DNA from: Sphingomonas panacis
GTDB taxonomy: Bacteria > Pseudomonadota > Alphaproteobacteria > Sphingomonadales > Sphingomonadaceae
Assembly (NCBI RefSeq): GCF_001717955.1
Contig: NZ_CP014168.1
Span: 4,681,501-4,745,500, forward strand
DNA length: 64,000 nt
Direction of reading: 5' to 3'
Of the stretch, positions 1 to 7,141 are shown one piece after another. A program made the position numbers and the translations under genes. Each line of letters begins with the position of its first letter. Within the stretch, counting starts at the first letter, position 1. The notes below the pieces were generated by a model. That model saw nothing but the letters and a program-made list of their open reading frames with translations, searched no databases and was not told the origin of the DNA.

Positions 1-2
1 AG

Positions 3-908
3 CTCTGCTCGACCGCGTTCACACCGCGCCGGGTGGAGGCGCTGGAGGAACGCGTGGTGTCGGTCGCCAACCGGCTGATCGACGCCGCGCTCGCCAAGGG
101 CGAAATGGACGTGATGGCGGATTTCGCCGAACCGTTCCCCTCGATCGTGTTCGCGCATCTGATGGGTGTGCCCGAGGAGGATCATGCGCAGCTCAAGAAA
201 TGGTCGGCCGATTACGCGCAGATGCTCGGCAATTTCTCGCACAACCCGGACGGGATCGCGCAGGTGCTGAAAAGTACCGCCGACATGATCGCCTATTTCC
301 AGCATGCCATCCACAGCGGCTCGCTCAAGGACGGTCTCGTCAAATCGCTGGTCGAGGCCGAGATCGACGGCCAGAAACTGACCGAGGAAGAGGTGATCGC
401 CAATGCCATCGTCACGATGGTGGGCGGACAGGAAACCACCACCAATCTGATCGGCTGCGGGCTGCTGACGCTGTTGCGCCAGCCCGATAAGCTCGCCGAG
501 CTGCGCGACCGGCCCGAGATCATGGAGAGCGCGATCGAGGAACTGCTGCGCTACGAAAGCCCGTCGCAGCACACCTCGCGCATCGCCACCGAGGATACGC
601 TGATGGGCGGCAAGCTCATCAAGAAGGGTACGCCGGTGATGGCGGTGATGGCCGCCGCCAACCGCGACCCCGAACGCTTCGCCGATCCCGACGCGCTCGA
701 TTTCGAGCGCGCGGACAATCGCCACATGGCGTTCGGCTGGGCGGCGCATTTCTGTTTCGGCGCGCCACTCGCCCGGATGGAGGGGCGAATCGCGTTCCGC
801 CTGCTGCTCGACCGGCTCAAGGCCCTCTCCTTGCCTGAGCAAAAGCTCGAATGGCGCGAGAATCTCGGCCTGCGCGGCCTCAAGGCTTTACGGGTGACCT
901 TCGCATGA
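3..908 (+). CDS. Cytochrome P450, 5' end cut by window edge
   Basis: Heme-thiolate monooxygenase, soluble bacterial class. The reading frame is open from the left edge (FTPRRVEALEERV is P450-like), so the N-terminal part lies outside the window. Visible signatures are the I-helix oxygen-activation motif GGQETT (about nt 424), the K-helix ExxR as EELLR (about nt 538) and the heme loop FGWAAHFCFGAPLAR with the Cys ligand at nt 753-755. The loop normally reads FGxGxHxC; the second Gly is Ala here. The stop overlaps the NRPS start as ATGA, so the two are translationally coupled. I infer that the P450 oxidises the amino acid or peptide handled by that NRPS, perhaps on the carrier protein. Family assignment is firm; the substrate is unknown. 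Confidence 0.93.
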   Translation, partial: LCSTAFTPRRVEALEERVVSVANRLIDAALAKGEMDVMADFAEPFPSIVFAHLMGVPEEDHAQLKKWSADYAQMLGNFSHNPDGIAQVLKSTADMIAYFQHAIHSGSLKDGLVKSLVEAEIDGQKLTEEEVIANAIVTMVGGQETTTNLIGCGLLTLLRQPDKLAELRDRPEIMESAIEELLRYESPSQHTSRIATEDTLMGGKLIKKGTPVMAVMAAANRDPERFADPDALDFERADNRHMAFGWAAHFCFGAPLARMEGRIAFRLLLDRLKALSLPEQKLEWRENLGLRGLKALRVTFA

Positions 909-3900
909 ACATGCCTGCCAAGATCGACGCTACTCAGGCGCGTCGCGACCTGCTCGCCAGGATGCTCGCCGGCAATGCCGCGACCGCGGCATCCGTCCCC
1001 GAGCCGATCCGCCCGCGCGACCCGGCGCGTACCATCCCGCTCACCGCCGAGCAGAACCAGCTCTGGCTGCACGCGCAGATGGCGCCGGAGATGCCGCTCT
1101 ACAACGAGTCGATCACGATCCACCGGCTCGGCCGCTACGATCATGCCGCGATGGAGCGCGCGCTGACCGAGATCGTGCGCCGCCACGCGATCTGGCGCTC
1201 GGCGATAGTCGAGGTCGATGGCGATTATGTCATGCAGGTCGCGCCCTCGACGCCGATCTCGCTGGCGATCATCGACATCAGCCATGTCCCGCAAGCCGAT
1301 CGCGAAGCCGAGGCGGTTCGGCTCGCCACCGAAGATGCGCGCGCGCCGATCGCGCCGGACGTGGCGCCGCTGTTCCGCGCCCGCGTCGTCAAGCTGGGCG
1401 ATCAGGAGCATCGGCTGTACCTGACGCTTCACCATGTCATTTTCGACGGCGTCTCGATCTACAAGACGTTGGTGCCCGAACTGGCGGCACTGGTCGATGC
1501 GTATGAGGCGGGCAAGCCCTCGCCGCTGCCCGAGCCGGCGCTGCAATATGCCGATTACGCCGTATGGCAGGCCGACCGCGAGCAGGGCGACGAATATCGC
1601 CGCCAGCTCGATTTCTGGCGCGGCCAGCTCGCCGCGCCGATCCCGCGCCTCGAAGTGGTCGGCGACCGCCCGCGCGCCGCGCTGCCGACGCATGCCGGTT
1701 CGATGGAGGTGTTCGAGCTCGACACGCCGCTGGTCGAGCGGCTCAAGGCGATCGCGCGCGCCGAGAACGCGACGCTCTATTCGGTGCTGCTCGCCGGCTA
1801 CAAGGCGATGCTGTTCCGCTATACCGGCGACGAGGACATCATCGTCGGCGGCGTCACCGACACGCGGCGGCGGCCCGAACTCCAGCCGCTGATGGGCTAT
1901 TTCCTCAACACGATGGCGATCCGCAGCCGTCCGCTGGGGGGCACGCCGTTCCGCGACTATCTGGCCGAGGTGAAGCGCAGCGTGATCGGCGCGCTCGGCG
2001 CGAGCGACATTCCGTTCGACAAGCTGGTCCGCGCGCTCGACATCAAGCGCGGCACCGGCACGCATCCGCTGTTCAACACGTTGTTCTCGATCGAGCCGCC
2101 GGTCGATCCGTTCCCGGCGGGCTGGGATCTGACGCAGATGGACGTGACCGTCGGCGCGGCGAAATACGATCTGTACCTCGAACTCGACGAGCGGCCCGAG
2201 GGCGGTATGGCCGGCCGCTTCCTCTATTCGAGCGAATTGTTCGACGCGTCCACGATCCGCCGCATGGCCGACCATTGGGTGCGGCTGCTCGAGGGCGTCG
2301 CCGCCGATCCGGGGACACCGCTGGCCAAGCTGCCGATGCTGGCTGCGGACGAGCAGGACCGGCTCGCCGCCGAATGGAACCAGACGACTCGCGAACTACC
2401 CTATGCGAGCGTGGTCGATTGGGTGGCGGCGAAGGCCGCCGCCGAACCGGATAGTGTGGTGATCGAGCAATCCGGCGAGGGCTGGACCTATGCCGAACTT
2501 GCGCATTCCGCCGATGCGATCGCCGCCGAACTGGTGTCGCGCGGCGTCGGGCCGGGCGCTTTGGTCGGGCTGTCGCTCGAACGCACGCCGTATATGATCG
2601 CGGCGATGCTCGGCGTGGTGAAGGCGGGCGCAGCATATCTGCCGCTCGACCCCAGCTTCCCGCAAGCGCGGCTGGCGATGATCGTCGAGAGCGCGGAGCC
2701 GGTGCTGATCCTCGTCGAACCCACCACCGAACACGCGCTGCCGCAGGACGCCGCGCCGCTGGTACGGCTCGACCGGCACTGGCCGCACCGCGCGTTCACG
2801 GCGCCTGCGATCGATCCCGAAGCGCCAGCTTATGTGCTGTACACGTCGGGCTCCACTGGAAAGCCCAAGGGCGTCGAGATCCCGCACGCGGCTTTGGTCA
2901 ACTTCCTCGTCGGCATGGAGGACAGCCTTGGGCTTGCGCCGCGCCAGTCGATCCTCGCGATCACGACGCTGTCGTTCGATATCGCCGAGCTGGAAATCTG
3001 GCTGCCGCTGGTGACGGGCGGCAAGGTCCATCTCGCCACGCGCGAGACCGCGACCGACATGATCGCGCTGGCCGAGGATGTCGCTCGGCTCAAGCCCGAT
3101 ATCCTTCAGGCGACTCCGGCGACGTGGCGCGGCCTGATCGAAGCGGGCTGGGAAGGCTCGCCCGCCCTCATTGCTCTGTGCGGCGGCGAGAAGCTGCCAC
3201 GCGCACTTGCCGATCAGGTGCTGCCGCGGGTGGGCACGCTCTGGAACATGTACGGCCCGACCGAGACGACGATCTGGTCGACCGTCGCCAAGGTCGAGCA
3301 AGGCCCGATCACGATCGGTCGCCCGATCGCCAACACGACGATCCGCATCCTCGACAGCCACTGCAACGATCGCCCGGTCGGCGCGGTCGGCGAATTGTGC
3401 ATCGGCGGGCGCGGCGTCGCGATCGGCTATCGCGGGCGACCCGACCTGACCGAAGCCAAGTTCATCGAGCATGATGGCGAACGGCTGTACAAGACCGGCG
3501 ATCTTGCGCGCTGGCGGCCCGACGGGATGCTCGAATGCCTCGGCCGCACCGATCATGAGGAGAAGATCCGCGGCTTCCGCGTCGCGATCGAGGAAGTCGA
3601 GGGCGCACTCGCGGCGCTGCCCGGCGTTTCGGCGGCGGTGGTGAAGGCGTGGCCCGACCCGAGCGGCGAACGCGCGCTGGTCGGCTATCTGGTCGGCACC
3701 GGCGAGATCGCGGAATGGCGCGAACTGCTCGGCGCCACCCTGCCCGATTACATGATCCCGACGCGGTTCGTGGTGCTCGACGAACTGCCGCAGACGCCCA
3801 ACGGCAAGATCGATCGCAACGCGCTGCCGGAACCGGGCAAAGCCTCGATCACGGACGACGCGCCGCTGGAAACGCCCGAGCAAACGAAGCTCGCCGCGAT

Positions 3901-4891
3901 CTGGAGCGACGTGCTCAAGGCGGAGGTGACGTCACGCAACGCCGATTTCTTCGATCTCGGCGGGCATTCGCTGCTGATCGCGCGGCTGATCCGGCGGATC
4001 GCCAAGGATTATGGCGTCAAGCTGCCGATGGCGGCGCTGTTCCAGGCGCCGCGTCTTGCCGACATGGCCGAGATCATCTCGGGCGGCAAAGGCATCGAGA
4101 ACCCGGCCGTCGCACAGATCCAGCCGAACGGATCGCAACCGCCGATCCTCTGGCTCGACGGCGGCTCGACCTTCCGCCCGCTCGCCGAGCGGCTCGGCCA
4201 CGACCAGCCGTTCTACGGCATCTCGACCGCCGCGATCATCGAGGCGGCGGGTGGCACGCCAAGCAAGGATTTCCGCAAGACCGCCGATCTCATCATCGCC
4301 ACGCTGCGCCAGATCCAGCCGAACGGGCCGTACCGGATCGGCGGCTGGTGTACCTCGGGAATCCTCGCCTACGCCGTCGCGACTCAACTCGAGGCGGCGG
4401 GCGACGAGGTGCGATTGCTGATGCTCGCGCATCCATTCCATCCGGTGCGTGCGCGCCAGATCGGGGCGGCGCGGTTCTTCCTCAGCAAGTTCAAATATCA
4501 CCTCGACAAGACGTTCGCGCAGCCCAAGGGCAAGCGCTGGCACTATTTCGTCGATCGCTTGCGCGGCCTCTCCGACGCGGCGGCGCTGGCGGGTGGGCGC
4601 GAGGCGGTGTTGCAGCCCAAGATCCAGTCGCGGCTCGATTATGCCGCGAGCCACTACACGCCGCCCGCATATGACGGCGACGTGATCCTGTTCCAGCCCG
4701 ACGACCATCCCGGCGTGCTCGATTTCGTCGAGGATTGGCGCGCGCAGGTGCGTGGGCAGTTCGACGCGCACATCATCCCCGGCGGGCACCGCACGATGCT
4801 CGAACCGCCCAATGTCGATATGTTCGCCGATCTGCTGCGCGCGCGGCTGGCGCGGGCGAATGCCGAGGCGGCGTTCCAGCGCAGCGCCTGA
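905..4891 (+). CDS. Single-module nonribosomal peptide synthetase, C-A-T-TE (1328 aa)
   Basis: Activates one amino acid, condenses it with an upstream acyl or peptidyl donor and releases the product. Domains: condensation about residues 30-460 with intact HHVIFDG (H176/H177, D181); adenylation about 485-985 with YTSGSTGKPKG at 646, YGPTETT, TGDLARW and NGKIDR; carrier about 990-1065 with LGGHSLL, phosphopantetheine Ser at 1022; thioesterase about 1075-1328. The thioesterase nucleophile elbow reads GGWCTSG, so C1149 sits where Ser is usual. The residue 27 positions on, normally Asp, is His (LAHPFHP), and the catalytic His is H1295 (GGHRTM). Start chosen at ATG 905 because it overlaps the P450 stop; a longer frame from 851 would run into the P450. 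Product unknown. Confidence 0.95.
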   Translation: MNMPAKIDATQARRDLLARMLAGNAATAASVPEPIRPRDPARTIPLTAEQNQLWLHAQMAPEMPLYNESITIHRLGRYDHAAMERALTEIVRRHAIWRSAIVEVDGDYVMQVAPSTPISLAIIDISHVPQADREAEAVRLATEDARAPIAPDVAPLFRARVVKLGDQEHRLYLTLHHVIFDGVSIYKTLVPELAALVDAYEAGKPSPLPEPALQYADYAVWQADREQGDEYRRQLDFWRGQLAAPIPRLEVVGDRPRAALPTHAGSMEVFELDTPLVERLKAIARAENATLYSVLLAGYKAMLFRYTGDEDIIVGGVTDTRRRPELQPLMGYFLNTMAIRSRPLGGTPFRDYLAEVKRSVIGALGASDIPFDKLVRALDIKRGTGTHPLFNTLFSIEPPVDPFPAGWDLTQMDVTVGAAKYDLYLELDERPEGGMAGRFLYSSELFDASTIRRMADHWVRLLEGVAADPGTPLAKLPMLAADEQDRLAAEWNQTTRELPYASVVDWVAAKAAAEPDSVVIEQSGEGWTYAELAHSADAIAAELVSRGVGPGALVGLSLERTPYMIAAMLGVVKAGAAYLPLDPSFPQARLAMIVESAEPVLILVEPTTEHALPQDAAPLVRLDRHWPHRAFTAPAIDPEAPAYVLYTSGSTGKPKGVEIPHAALVNFLVGMEDSLGLAPRQSILAITTLSFDIAELEIWLPLVTGGKVHLATRETATDMIALAEDVARLKPDILQATPATWRGLIEAGWEGSPALIALCGGEKLPRALADQVLPRVGTLWNMYGPTETTIWSTVAKVEQGPITIGRPIANTTIRILDSHCNDRPVGAVGELCIGGRGVAIGYRGRPDLTEAKFIEHDGERLYKTGDLARWRPDGMLECLGRTDHEEKIRGFRVAIEEVEGALAALPGVSAAVVKAWPDPSGERALVGYLVGTGEIAEWRELLGATLPDYMIPTRFVVLDELPQTPNGKIDRNALPEPGKASITDDAPLETPEQTKLAAIWSDVLKAEVTSRNADFFDLGGHSLLIARLIRRIAKDYGVKLPMAALFQAPRLADMAEIISGGKGIENPAVAQIQPNGSQPPILWLDGGSTFRPLAERLGHDQPFYGISTAAIIEAAGGTPSKDFRKTADLIIATLRQIQPNGPYRIGGWCTSGILAYAVATQLEAAGDEVRLLMLAHPFHPVRARQIGAARFFLSKFKYHLDKTFAQPKGKRWHYFVDRLRGLSDAAALAGGREAVLQPKIQSRLDYAASHYTPPAYDGDVILFQPDDHPGVLDFVEDWRAQVRGQFDAHIIPGGHRTMLEPPNVDMFADLLRARLARANAEAAFQRSA

Positions 4892-4895
4892 TCGG

Positions 4896-5567
4896 GTGGC
4901 GGCGGCCGATCTTCACTTCGGCAGCCTTGATGTCGGCGAGGACGAGGTTGGGCGGCTGGCGGAGGTGCTTGATCCGGCCGAGCGGGCACGCGCGGCACGC
5001 TTCGCCTTCGCGCGCGACCGGCGCCGCTTCATCGTGCGGCGCGCGCGGTTGCGCGAGACGTTGGCAGCGATGACCGGGGTCGCGGCGGAGCGGCTCGTCT
5101 TCCGCGCGAACGCTTATGGCAAGCCGGCGCTGGCGGGCGGGCCGCAGTTCAGCGCCTCGCACTCGCATGAGTTGTGGGTGGTGGCGGTGTCTGATCGCGA
5201 ATTGGGCGTGGATGTGGAATATCGCCAGCCCGGCATCGACTGGCGCGATCTCGCGGCGGGGCTGTTCGGGGCGGACGAATGCGCCGCGCTCGATGCGCTC
5301 ACGAAGGATGACGCGGTGCGCGGCTTCTTCGATTGCTGGGCGCGCAAGGAGGCGTTCGTCAAGGCGATCGGGATGGGGCTGGCGTATCCGCTCGATGCGT
5401 TCGCTGTCTCGGTGACGCCCGAGGCGCGGTTGCTCTCGGGGGCGGACGGGTGGCGCATCGCTGGCTTTGCGTTGGCGGAAGGCTATTCGGGCGCGCTGGT
5501 GATTGCGGAGGACGGCGGGCCGATCGGAATCGCGACAAACCCGTCCCTACACCTACGTTCGCCCTGA
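4896..5567 (+). CDS. Sfp-type 4'-phosphopantetheinyl transferase (223 aa)
   Basis: Transfers 4'-phosphopantetheine from CoA to the conserved Ser of carrier domains, here presumably Ser1022 of the adjacent NRPS. All three family motifs are visible: GKPAL followed by FSASHSH, LGVDVEY with the Mg2+ acidic pair, and WARKEAFVKAIGMGL, matching WxxKEAxxKxxG. Length is typical of the Sfp/EntD group. GTG 4896 is the likely start, four bases after the NRPS stop; an ATG at 4752 in the same frame lies deep inside the NRPS and is unlikely. The last residues (RSP) and the stop codon fall inside a palindromic repeat that begins near 5556, so the C-terminus may have been reset by insertion of that repeat. 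Confidence 0.92.
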   Translation: MAAADLHFGSLDVGEDEVGRLAEVLDPAERARAARFAFARDRRRFIVRRARLRETLAAMTGVAAERLVFRANAYGKPALAGGPQFSASHSHELWVVAVSDRELGVDVEYRQPGIDWRDLAAGLFGADECAALDALTKDDAVRGFFDCWARKEAFVKAIGMGLAYPLDAFAVSVTPEARLLSGADGWRIAGFALAEGYSGALVIAEDGGPIGIATNPSLHLRSP

Positions 5568-6150: not shown

Positions 6151-6471
6151 TCAGGCCGGCTTCCAGTCGAACGGCAAGGGCGCCTCGCGGAAGGCGAAGC
6201 GGTCGAGATGGCGCGCGACCGCGCCCTTCAACCCGTCGAGCTGCTCGCCCGAGCTCGCGTCGATCCGCACGTCGAGGCCAGCCTCGCGCGCATCGAACGT
6301 CACCAGCGCATCGGCCGGCCAATCGGCACCGCGCGCATCCTTGGGGAAAACGATCGTGCCGTGATCGGGGGTGAATTCGACCGCGAGGTTGTGCTGCCAG
6401 TGCTTGCACACCTGTTGGAGATATTTGCTCGCGCTCTCGGTCGGCACGGTGGCGGTTGCGCTGATGGTCAT
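6151..6471 (-). CDS. DUF2218 family protein (106 aa)
   Basis: Small cytoplasmic protein of the DUF2218 family, function not established. Core features are KYLQQVCKHWQHN near the N-terminus and ending in LPFDWKP, which fits the family's usual length of about 100 residues. The start at 6471 is chosen because AAAGGA lies seven bases upstream; the frame continues further 5' but that stretch does not look coding. It sits between a PadR-type regulator and msrB on the same strand, so the three may be co-transcribed. Family members often sit near iron or siderophore genes, but nothing here shows that link. Confidence 0.8.
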   Translation of the reverse strand: MTISATATVPTESASKYLQQVCKHWQHNLAVEFTPDHGTIVFPKDARGADWPADALVTFDAREAGLDVRIDASSGEQLDGLKGAVARHLDRFAFREAPLPFDWKPA

Positions 6472-6553
6472 ACTCAAGTCCTTTCTCGCCGGGGTTTGTG
6501 GCCCCGGCGTAACGATTGCGAGCCGCTTGCGCAGTATCTGCAAGCGGGTCATC

Positions 6554-7141
6554 TCAGAGGCGCTCGATCTTCTGCGCGGCGTCGTCGAGCAGCGCCGTGA
6601 TCTGGTGAAGCGTTTCGGTGTCGACATCCTCCGCCGTCAGCCGGTTCTGTAGCGCCATGCGCAGGTTGCCCATTGCCCGGCGGATCGGCGCGCCGTCGGT
6701 ACGGGCGCTGTGCTTGCCGACTTCGGCGAGGCGCGCGAACAGCGTTTCGACCAGTTCGGCGTTTTCGACGAGGTGGGCGGTGCCCGCTTCGGTGGCGGTG
6801 AAGAGCTTCTTGGCGCCCTCGCTCTTGCCGGCTTCGATCAGCCCCATGTCGTCGAGCAGGGTGAGCGTGGGATACACCACGCCGGGGCTGGGCGCATAGG
6901 CGCCGCCGGTCAGTTCCTCGATCTGGCGGATCAGATCATAGCCGTGGCGCGGCGTGTCGGCGATCAGCTTCAAGAGCACCAGTTTGAGCTCGCCGCCGTC
7001 GAACATGCGGCGGGCACGCCCGCCGCCCATCCCGCCGCCGCGACCTTCGCCCCAACCGCCGCCGAAACCACCCCGGCCCATGCCGTGATGGTGATGATGG
7101 CCGTGGCCGAAGCCGCCAGCCCGTTTGTTAAAACCAAACAT
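6554..7141 (-). CDS. PadR-family transcriptional regulator with His/Gly-rich N-terminus (195 aa)
   Basis: DNA-binding repressor-type protein. The PadR winged helix spans about residues 45-125: LKLVLLKLIADTPRHGYDL, then SPGVVYPTLTLLDDMGLI as the recognition region. A C-terminal helical part about 130-195 should mediate dimerisation. The first 45 residues are a low-complexity tail with HGHHHHHGMGRGGFGGG and more Gly/Arg; such tails can bind metal or nucleic acid, but that is inference. It lies just upstream of the DUF2218 gene, its likely target. A 12-base perfect palindrome at 7172-7183, about 30 bases before the start codon, is a plausible autoregulatory operator. The effector is unknown. Confidence 0.9.
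   Translation of the reverse strand: MFGFNKRAGGFGHGHHHHHGMGRGGFGGGWGEGRGGGMGGGRARRMFDGGELKLVLLKLIADTPRHGYDLIRQIEELTGGAYAPSPGVVYPTLTLLDDMGLIEAGKSEGAKKLFTATEAGTAHLVENAELVETLFARLAEVGKHSARTDGAPIRRAMGNLRMALQNRLTAEDVDTETLHQITALLDDAAQKIERL

Follow-up and report, generated by a model that had tools for sequence, protein, structure and literature searches.

A lineage-fixed Cys/His thioesterase domain in a sphingomonad nonribosomal peptide synthetase

The stretch of the Sphingomonas panacis genome analysed here (64,000 nucleotides, positions 4,681,501 to 4,745,500 of contig NZ_CP014168.1, hereafter the window) encodes a nonribosomal peptide synthetase (NRPS) composed of condensation, adenylation, thiolation and thioesterase domains (C-A-T-TE; 905..4891, forward strand). 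Its thioesterase carries a Cys in place of the usual Ser nucleophile and a His where the triad Asp is normally found, and this Cys/His thioesterase is a genuine variant of a known domain type, fixed within one lineage. Our leading interpretation, held tentatively and at just short of an even chance, is that it releases the chain made by a two-module Leu-Gly synthetase and that its triad acid has moved from the position following strand beta6 (position I) to that following beta7 (position II); we infer the acid contact, the substrate of an accompanying cytochrome P450 and the product.

The domain (TE residues 1-263, the numbering used below) extends over about 4100..4888 of the forward strand, TE residue 1 corresponding to base 4100. 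It is an alpha/beta hydrolase domain located C-terminal to the carrier domain and exceeds the Pfam cut-off for type I NRPS thioesterases (PF00975). Instead of the canonical EntF/SrfA-type triad, with its Ser nucleophile and an Asp 27 residues later, it contains Cys84 (4349..4351, forward strand), the last residue of the GGWC elbow (4340-4351), and, exactly 27 residues on, His111 (4430..4432, forward strand). The catalytic His of the GGH motif, His230 (4787..4789, forward strand), is retained.

Relatives were sought in samples of the genus (295 genomes), family (298), order (396), class (337) and phylum (398), as well as in a species-level genome collection. The best matches of each search yielded 136 thioesterase-like stretches 190 residues or longer (loci L004-L141; shorter ones were dropped), of which 102 distinct ones were kept, such that all counts refer to stretches that were fetched and could be aligned. 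By nucleophile and position-I residue, the 102 rows comprise 24 Cys/His (C/H), 28 Cys/Asp (C/D), 44 Ser/Asp and three Ser/Glu combinations, together with one each of Cys/Glu, Cys/Gly and Cys/Asn. Position-I His was found solely with Cys and solely in one sphingomonad group; in the 78 other rows the position is occupied by Asp (72), Glu (4), Gly (1) or Asn (1). Cys84, His111 and His230 are each present in all 24 group members, the last also in 74 of the 78 other rows. The group is likewise invariant at Thr85, Lys130, His134, Tyr149 and Arg153, residues found in 1, 4, 3, 1 and 8 of the other rows, respectively. A sequence-only reading of this DNA had already proposed the Cys as nucleophile, the His as substitute for the Asp and the GGH His as conserved, and had called the joint change of nucleophile and acid position unusual. 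These four points are borne out, and the joint change proves to be fixed in one lineage.

The C/H group spans independent assemblies of other species, and its members range down to 39% identity with the thioesterase domain of the window. A close relative (E under 1e-100) occurs in 21 of the 295 genomes of the genus sample. The species-level scan returned nine loci, of which seven bear the name Sphingomonas or Sphingomonadaceae and an eighth is labelled “uncultured bacterium”; these eight are at 66-97% identity and are all C/H, while the ninth, from a Chloroflexi metagenome-assembled genome, is Ser/Asp. In the 22 new loci of the phylum sample, none of the 26 domain rows with a filled nucleophile column has His at position I. 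Since the same residues recur in independent assemblies, the Cys/His pair is genuine and a sequencing error is ruled out; the earlier suggestion that Asp in all close homologs might expose such an error is refuted.

Which residue then serves as the triad acid? Acids are conserved in all 24 group members at seven places, namely Asp20 (4157..4159, forward strand, in the oxyanion loop after beta3), Asp/Glu at 48, 159, 180, 202 and 235, and Asp208. Two of these are candidates for the relocated acid: Asp202 (4703..4705, forward strand; Asp in 11 and Glu in 13 group members) and, secondarily, Asp208 (4721..4723, forward strand), which lies in the helix after beta7 and is Asp in 33 of the 78 other rows. 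A structure prediction had been suggested earlier as a means of finding the acid that faces the catalytic His. We consulted an AlphaFold2 model built from a 10-row alignment (mean predicted local distance difference test score 83.0 and predicted template modelling score 0.83, with block means of 43-73 over residues 121-180). Fold matches to known thioesterases rule out a new fold. In the model, Cys84 follows strand 78-83, His111 follows strand 104-110, residues 201-202 come directly after strand 195-200, and His230 is in the loop after strand 221-226. The topology thus places residue 202 at position II, its contact with His230 being a candidate one. Residue 202 precedes His230 by 28 residues, and the position-II Asp of RifR precedes its His by 28. 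The corresponding spacing is 30 in both ObiF1 (D1254-H1284) and SulM (D2926-H2956), and position II holds the triad Asp in ObiF1, SulM, RifR and RedJ, according to passages of the two papers concerned (PMC6668435, PMC11298585). By topology and conservation, Asp/Glu202 is the likeliest candidate for the partner acid of His230. An acid contributed from elsewhere in the domain, named earlier as grounds for refutation, thereby has a candidate. The earlier claim of an altered triad acid stands insofar as the position-I Asp has given way to His, whereas actual loss of the acid is doubtful.

Several observations weigh against this assignment. Of the 68 other rows in which column 202 is filled, 31 are likewise acidic at that place; 28 of these 31 additionally keep Asp at position I, and the alignment is noisy around the column. 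As an acid at 202 is common elsewhere, mostly alongside the position-I Asp, its presence is weak evidence for relocation. Alternatively, the acid may have been lost, leaving a Cys84-His230 dyad with His111 beside His230 or the substrate, in which case release would be slow and a long-lived acyl-enzyme would be resolved by a strong nucleophile. The fixation of His111 in all 24 members counts in favour of such a dyad, and Cys enzymes can depend little on the acid: passages of PMC6668435 report only about an eightfold loss for ObiF1 D1254A. On the other hand, the position-II acid is kept throughout the group, and a single trial described in passages of PMC11298585 saw no reaction with SulM D2926A. 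We regard loss of the acid as rather unlikely.

The probable substrate can be approached through the genes that accompany the synthetase. Together they form a four-gene operon (window 1-5567 and L002:17419-20000) that encodes a free-standing A-T protein with a Leu code, a cytochrome P450, the C-A-T-TE synthetase with a Gly code and an Sfp-type phosphopantetheinyl transferase (PPTase). The P450 gene (1..908, forward strand; PF00067) begins about 310 bases before the window and is complete at L003:1188-2408; the PPTase (4896..5567, forward strand; PF01648 and PF22624) has a putative GTG start within an open reading frame (ORF) listed from 4752. Many sphingomonads retain the operon, its neighbouring genes overlapping at their ends, and the four genes are consecutive in 16 of the 17 group loci that have wide flanks; in L034-L040 the edge of the locus truncates the A-T gene, and the 17th locus, L041, begins inside the P450 gene. 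The best solved-structure match of the P450 is 3ejb, which we take to be BioI. Its nine NCBIfam matches, among them a family of cyclodipeptide-synthase-associated P450s, all fall below the cut-off.

By motif alignment, the A-T protein carries the code DAWFLGNVVK in 16 of 17 cases and DAWFLGDVVK in one (L041 and L083 are omitted, since the best match there is the synthetase itself). The adenylation domain of the terminal module (2429..3808, forward strand; Pfam AMP-binding 527-860 and AMP-binding_C 915-986) reads DILQLGMIWK here and in 13 of 18 group members altogether, and DILQLGVIWK in the other five. In passages of the sources, DAWFLGNVVK is assigned to Leu (PMC12283262, PMC7524897) and DILQLGMIWK to Gly (PMC12283262); DILQLGVIWK is absent from the main text of PMC12283262, the one text checked for that code. 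A Leu code followed by a Gly code predicts a Leu-Gly chain, perhaps with an oxidised Leu. In the listed titles and abstract openings of the matching literature, neither the operon nor a position-I His is named and no product of the operon was seen, and passages of a Sphingomonas paper (PMC9716278) are without mention of the operon.

Under the relocated-acid interpretation, the A-T protein would load Leu, the P450 would probably oxidise it there, and the synthetase would join Gly to it. The chain would then move from the thiolation domain to Cys84, with His230 acting as general base and its partner acid shifted from position I to position II, at Asp/Glu202, an arrangement known from ObiF1, SulM and certain type II thioesterases. 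Position I, freed of its acid duty, could have become His111, which together with Asp20 may reshape the acyl pocket. As the acyl end is predicted to be a Gly without a beta nucleophile, release would most likely occur by an amine, either an external one or the Leu amine of the chain itself, whose attack would close a diketopiperazine; plain hydrolysis would be the next possibility. Transfer to an amine and slow hydrolysis had both been proposed in the sequence-only reading and stay plausible. In support of the relocated-acid interpretation, ObiF1 and SulM, both of which combine Cys with a position-II Asp in the published passages, yield products that are small, a property that a dipeptide would share.

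The role of Asp20 deserves separate attention. Position 20 is His in 45, Pro in 13 and Asp in 8 of the 78 other rows, and the loop after beta3 reads W(L/I)DGG in the group, often HP.GG or similar elsewhere. Outside the C/H group, Asp20 is confined to the eight nearest C/D relatives. The joint states of positions 20, 84 and 111 are His-Ser-Asp (27 rows), Asp-Cys-His (24), His-Cys-Asp (15), Pro-Ser-Asp (12), Asp-Cys-Asp (8) and rarer others. As read from the alignment, Asp and His are thus exchanged between positions 20 and 111, beside the nucleophile, relative to the commonest state.

A tree of Cys thioesterases had also been suggested earlier as a check; the two trees built here differ on the number of origins of His111. 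In a quick tree that included all 102 rows but excluded columns 84, 111 and 202, the C/H rows form one group with a single change to His111 (Shimodaira-Hasegawa-like approximate likelihood ratio support 70). In a more careful tree of 52 chosen rows, from which column 20 was excluded as well, the 32 Asp20 rows (24 C/H and 8 C/D) group together with support 97/92; within them the best tree needs two changes to His111, and 41% of the bootstrap trees need a single one. The sequences thus suggest one or two origins of His111. Because Asp20 otherwise occurs only in the eight nearest C/D relatives, Cys and Asp20 most likely preceded His111. What is new is that His111 most likely arose in a background already holding Asp20, giving Asp20/His111 as opposed to the commonest His20/Asp111.

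Some of the C/D relatives differ in architecture. Those at L135-L140 have a GGWCRWG elbow and Asp20. Pfam domain scans of the nearest C/D relatives covered L135 and G521: the former is an A-T-TE protein of 841 residues in all, whose N-terminus is truncated by the edge of the locus, and the latter has a C-A-T-TE. Another C/D relative with Asp20 lies in a related but rearranged cluster (L083:8598-17985). This contains a P450 of 44% identity with a thiolation-domain piece adjoining at the locus edge (an A-T gene may have been truncated there) and, several kilobases beyond the P450, an adenylation domain without a PP-binding match and then a C-A-T-TE synthetase; a PPTase match was not found within the locus.

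The exchange raises the possibility that Asp20 and His111 constitute an additional dyad, opposite in polarity to the usual His20/Asp111 pair, in which His230 would load Cys84 while His111 activates the incoming amine. All 24 His111 rows do carry Asp20. Nevertheless, the usual sheet order places beta3 and beta6 to either side of the nucleophile strand, and positions 20 and 111, which end these strands, may be too far apart for direct contact; moreover, the eight relatives with both Asp20 and Asp111 speak against a forced pairing. We consider this dyad improbable. The same low weight applies to a broader two-base scheme, in which His230 and Asp/Glu202 would load the chain and the Asp20/His111 pair would activate the Leu amine or an outside amine for aminolysis of the P450-oxidised Leu-Gly.

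A strained-ring former of the ObiF/SulM type, producing a beta-lactone or beta-lactam, would account for the combination of Cys and a position-II acid, which is common to both strained-ring domains named in the published passages. This idea, also raised in the sequence-only reading, is weakened by the predicted Gly-type code in the last adenylation domain of all 18 group members read, since a terminal Gly without a beta nucleophile makes a beta-lactone unlikely. In addition, the elbow reads Trp-Cys-Thr without the Gln-Cys-Asn motif of SulM, and position I is His and not the Gly of ObiF1, so that we judge ring formation very doubtful. Just as doubtful is an inactive or merely proof-reading domain, with the dipeptide leaving by spontaneous cyclisation: diketopiperazines can form non-enzymatically from dipeptidyl thioesters, but the invariance of Cys84, His230 and several pocket residues down to 39% identity points to function.

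The condensation domain of the synthetase is the single match of its kind in the whole 5.3 Mb genome. Five Pfam domains score above the cut-off in the ORF listed as 851-4891: Condensation (residues 60-505), AMP-binding (527-860), AMP-binding_C (915-986), PP-binding (1013-1075) and Thioesterase (1106-1330). In place of the listed ATG at 851, the likely start codon is ATG 905, which lies within an ATGA that overlaps the stop codon of the P450 gene (906-908). Earlier residue numbers (1075-1328, H1295) fit the start at 905 and would be 18 higher if counted from 851. An earlier domain start at 4120 is incorrect, being out of frame by one (codon 1091 of ORF 851-4891 begins at base 4121), and 4120-4891 translated as given meets a stop.

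Upstream of the operon (L002:4790-16738) lie hopanoid-synthesis-like genes, named by eye: a squalene/phytoene synthase-like pair, a desaturase-like gene, a squalene-hopene cyclase, an HpnH-like radical S-adenosylmethionine gene, an IspH-like gene and a resistance-nodulation-division exporter. By matching coordinates (contig names were not compared), an HpnN-like gene adjoins the operon in the window's own genome and in L034-L037. HpnN-like matches occur in 10 of 12 genomes, on a contig other than that of the operon in G155 and G225, and with adjacency not callable in G279, G302 and G304; there is none in G268 or G303, nor inside L043-L045 or L077-L082. As the adjacency is local to the closest species, a functional hopanoid link was set aside. 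Downstream, on the reverse strand (6151-7141), are a PadR-type regulator and a DUF2218 protein; among 18 loci, matches to both were seen in just two, L034 and L035.

In the published passages, a Cys with a relocated acid is named for two NRPS thioesterases, ObiF1 and SulM. Both make strained rings, hence the idea that moving the acid helps to close the ring. The present natural family may share the Cys and the relocated acid but is predicted to end its chain in Gly and has an occupied position I; it would allow the influence of triad layout to be told apart from that of the substrate, and the small size of the operon and its presence in many sphingomonads make the question directly testable.

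Among known systems, the EntF and SrfA-C thioesterases, which have a Ser-His-Asp triad with Asp at position I and also appear among the sequence and fold matches, are alike in fold and domain order but differ in both nucleophile and position-I residue. The AB3403 thioesterase (4ZXH), among the best sequence and fold matches, shares the GGWC elbow but combines its Cys with an Asp kept at position I, where the Sphingomonas domain has His111. ObiF1 and SulM are not among the 50 fold matches listed, which excludes nothing. According to passages of PMC11298585, the sulfazecin thioesterase of SulM (Cys2818, His2956, Asp2926) likewise has a Cys nucleophile, with its acid after beta7 where the candidate Asp/Glu202 lies here, but differs in its elbow motif and in its arginines for sulfamate, a substrate not expected here. 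The obafluorin thioesterase of ObiF1 (Cys1146, His1284, and Asp1254 at position II), as described in passages of PMC6668435, resembles the present domain in its Cys nucleophile and, as predicted here, in its acid after beta7 and small acyl product. It differs in having Gly1173 at position I, a beta-hydroxyl substrate as opposed to a predicted Gly end, and a C-A-PCP-TE order (PCP, peptidyl carrier protein) followed by an MbtH-like domain, whereas nothing follows the Sphingomonas C-A-T-TE. The C/H group shares with the ObiF/SulM type the Cys nucleophile. By model topology and conservation in all 24 members it has a candidate for the position-II acid, at a place where an acid is also common elsewhere, but it has neither a small position-I residue nor, as predicted, a terminal beta nucleophile.
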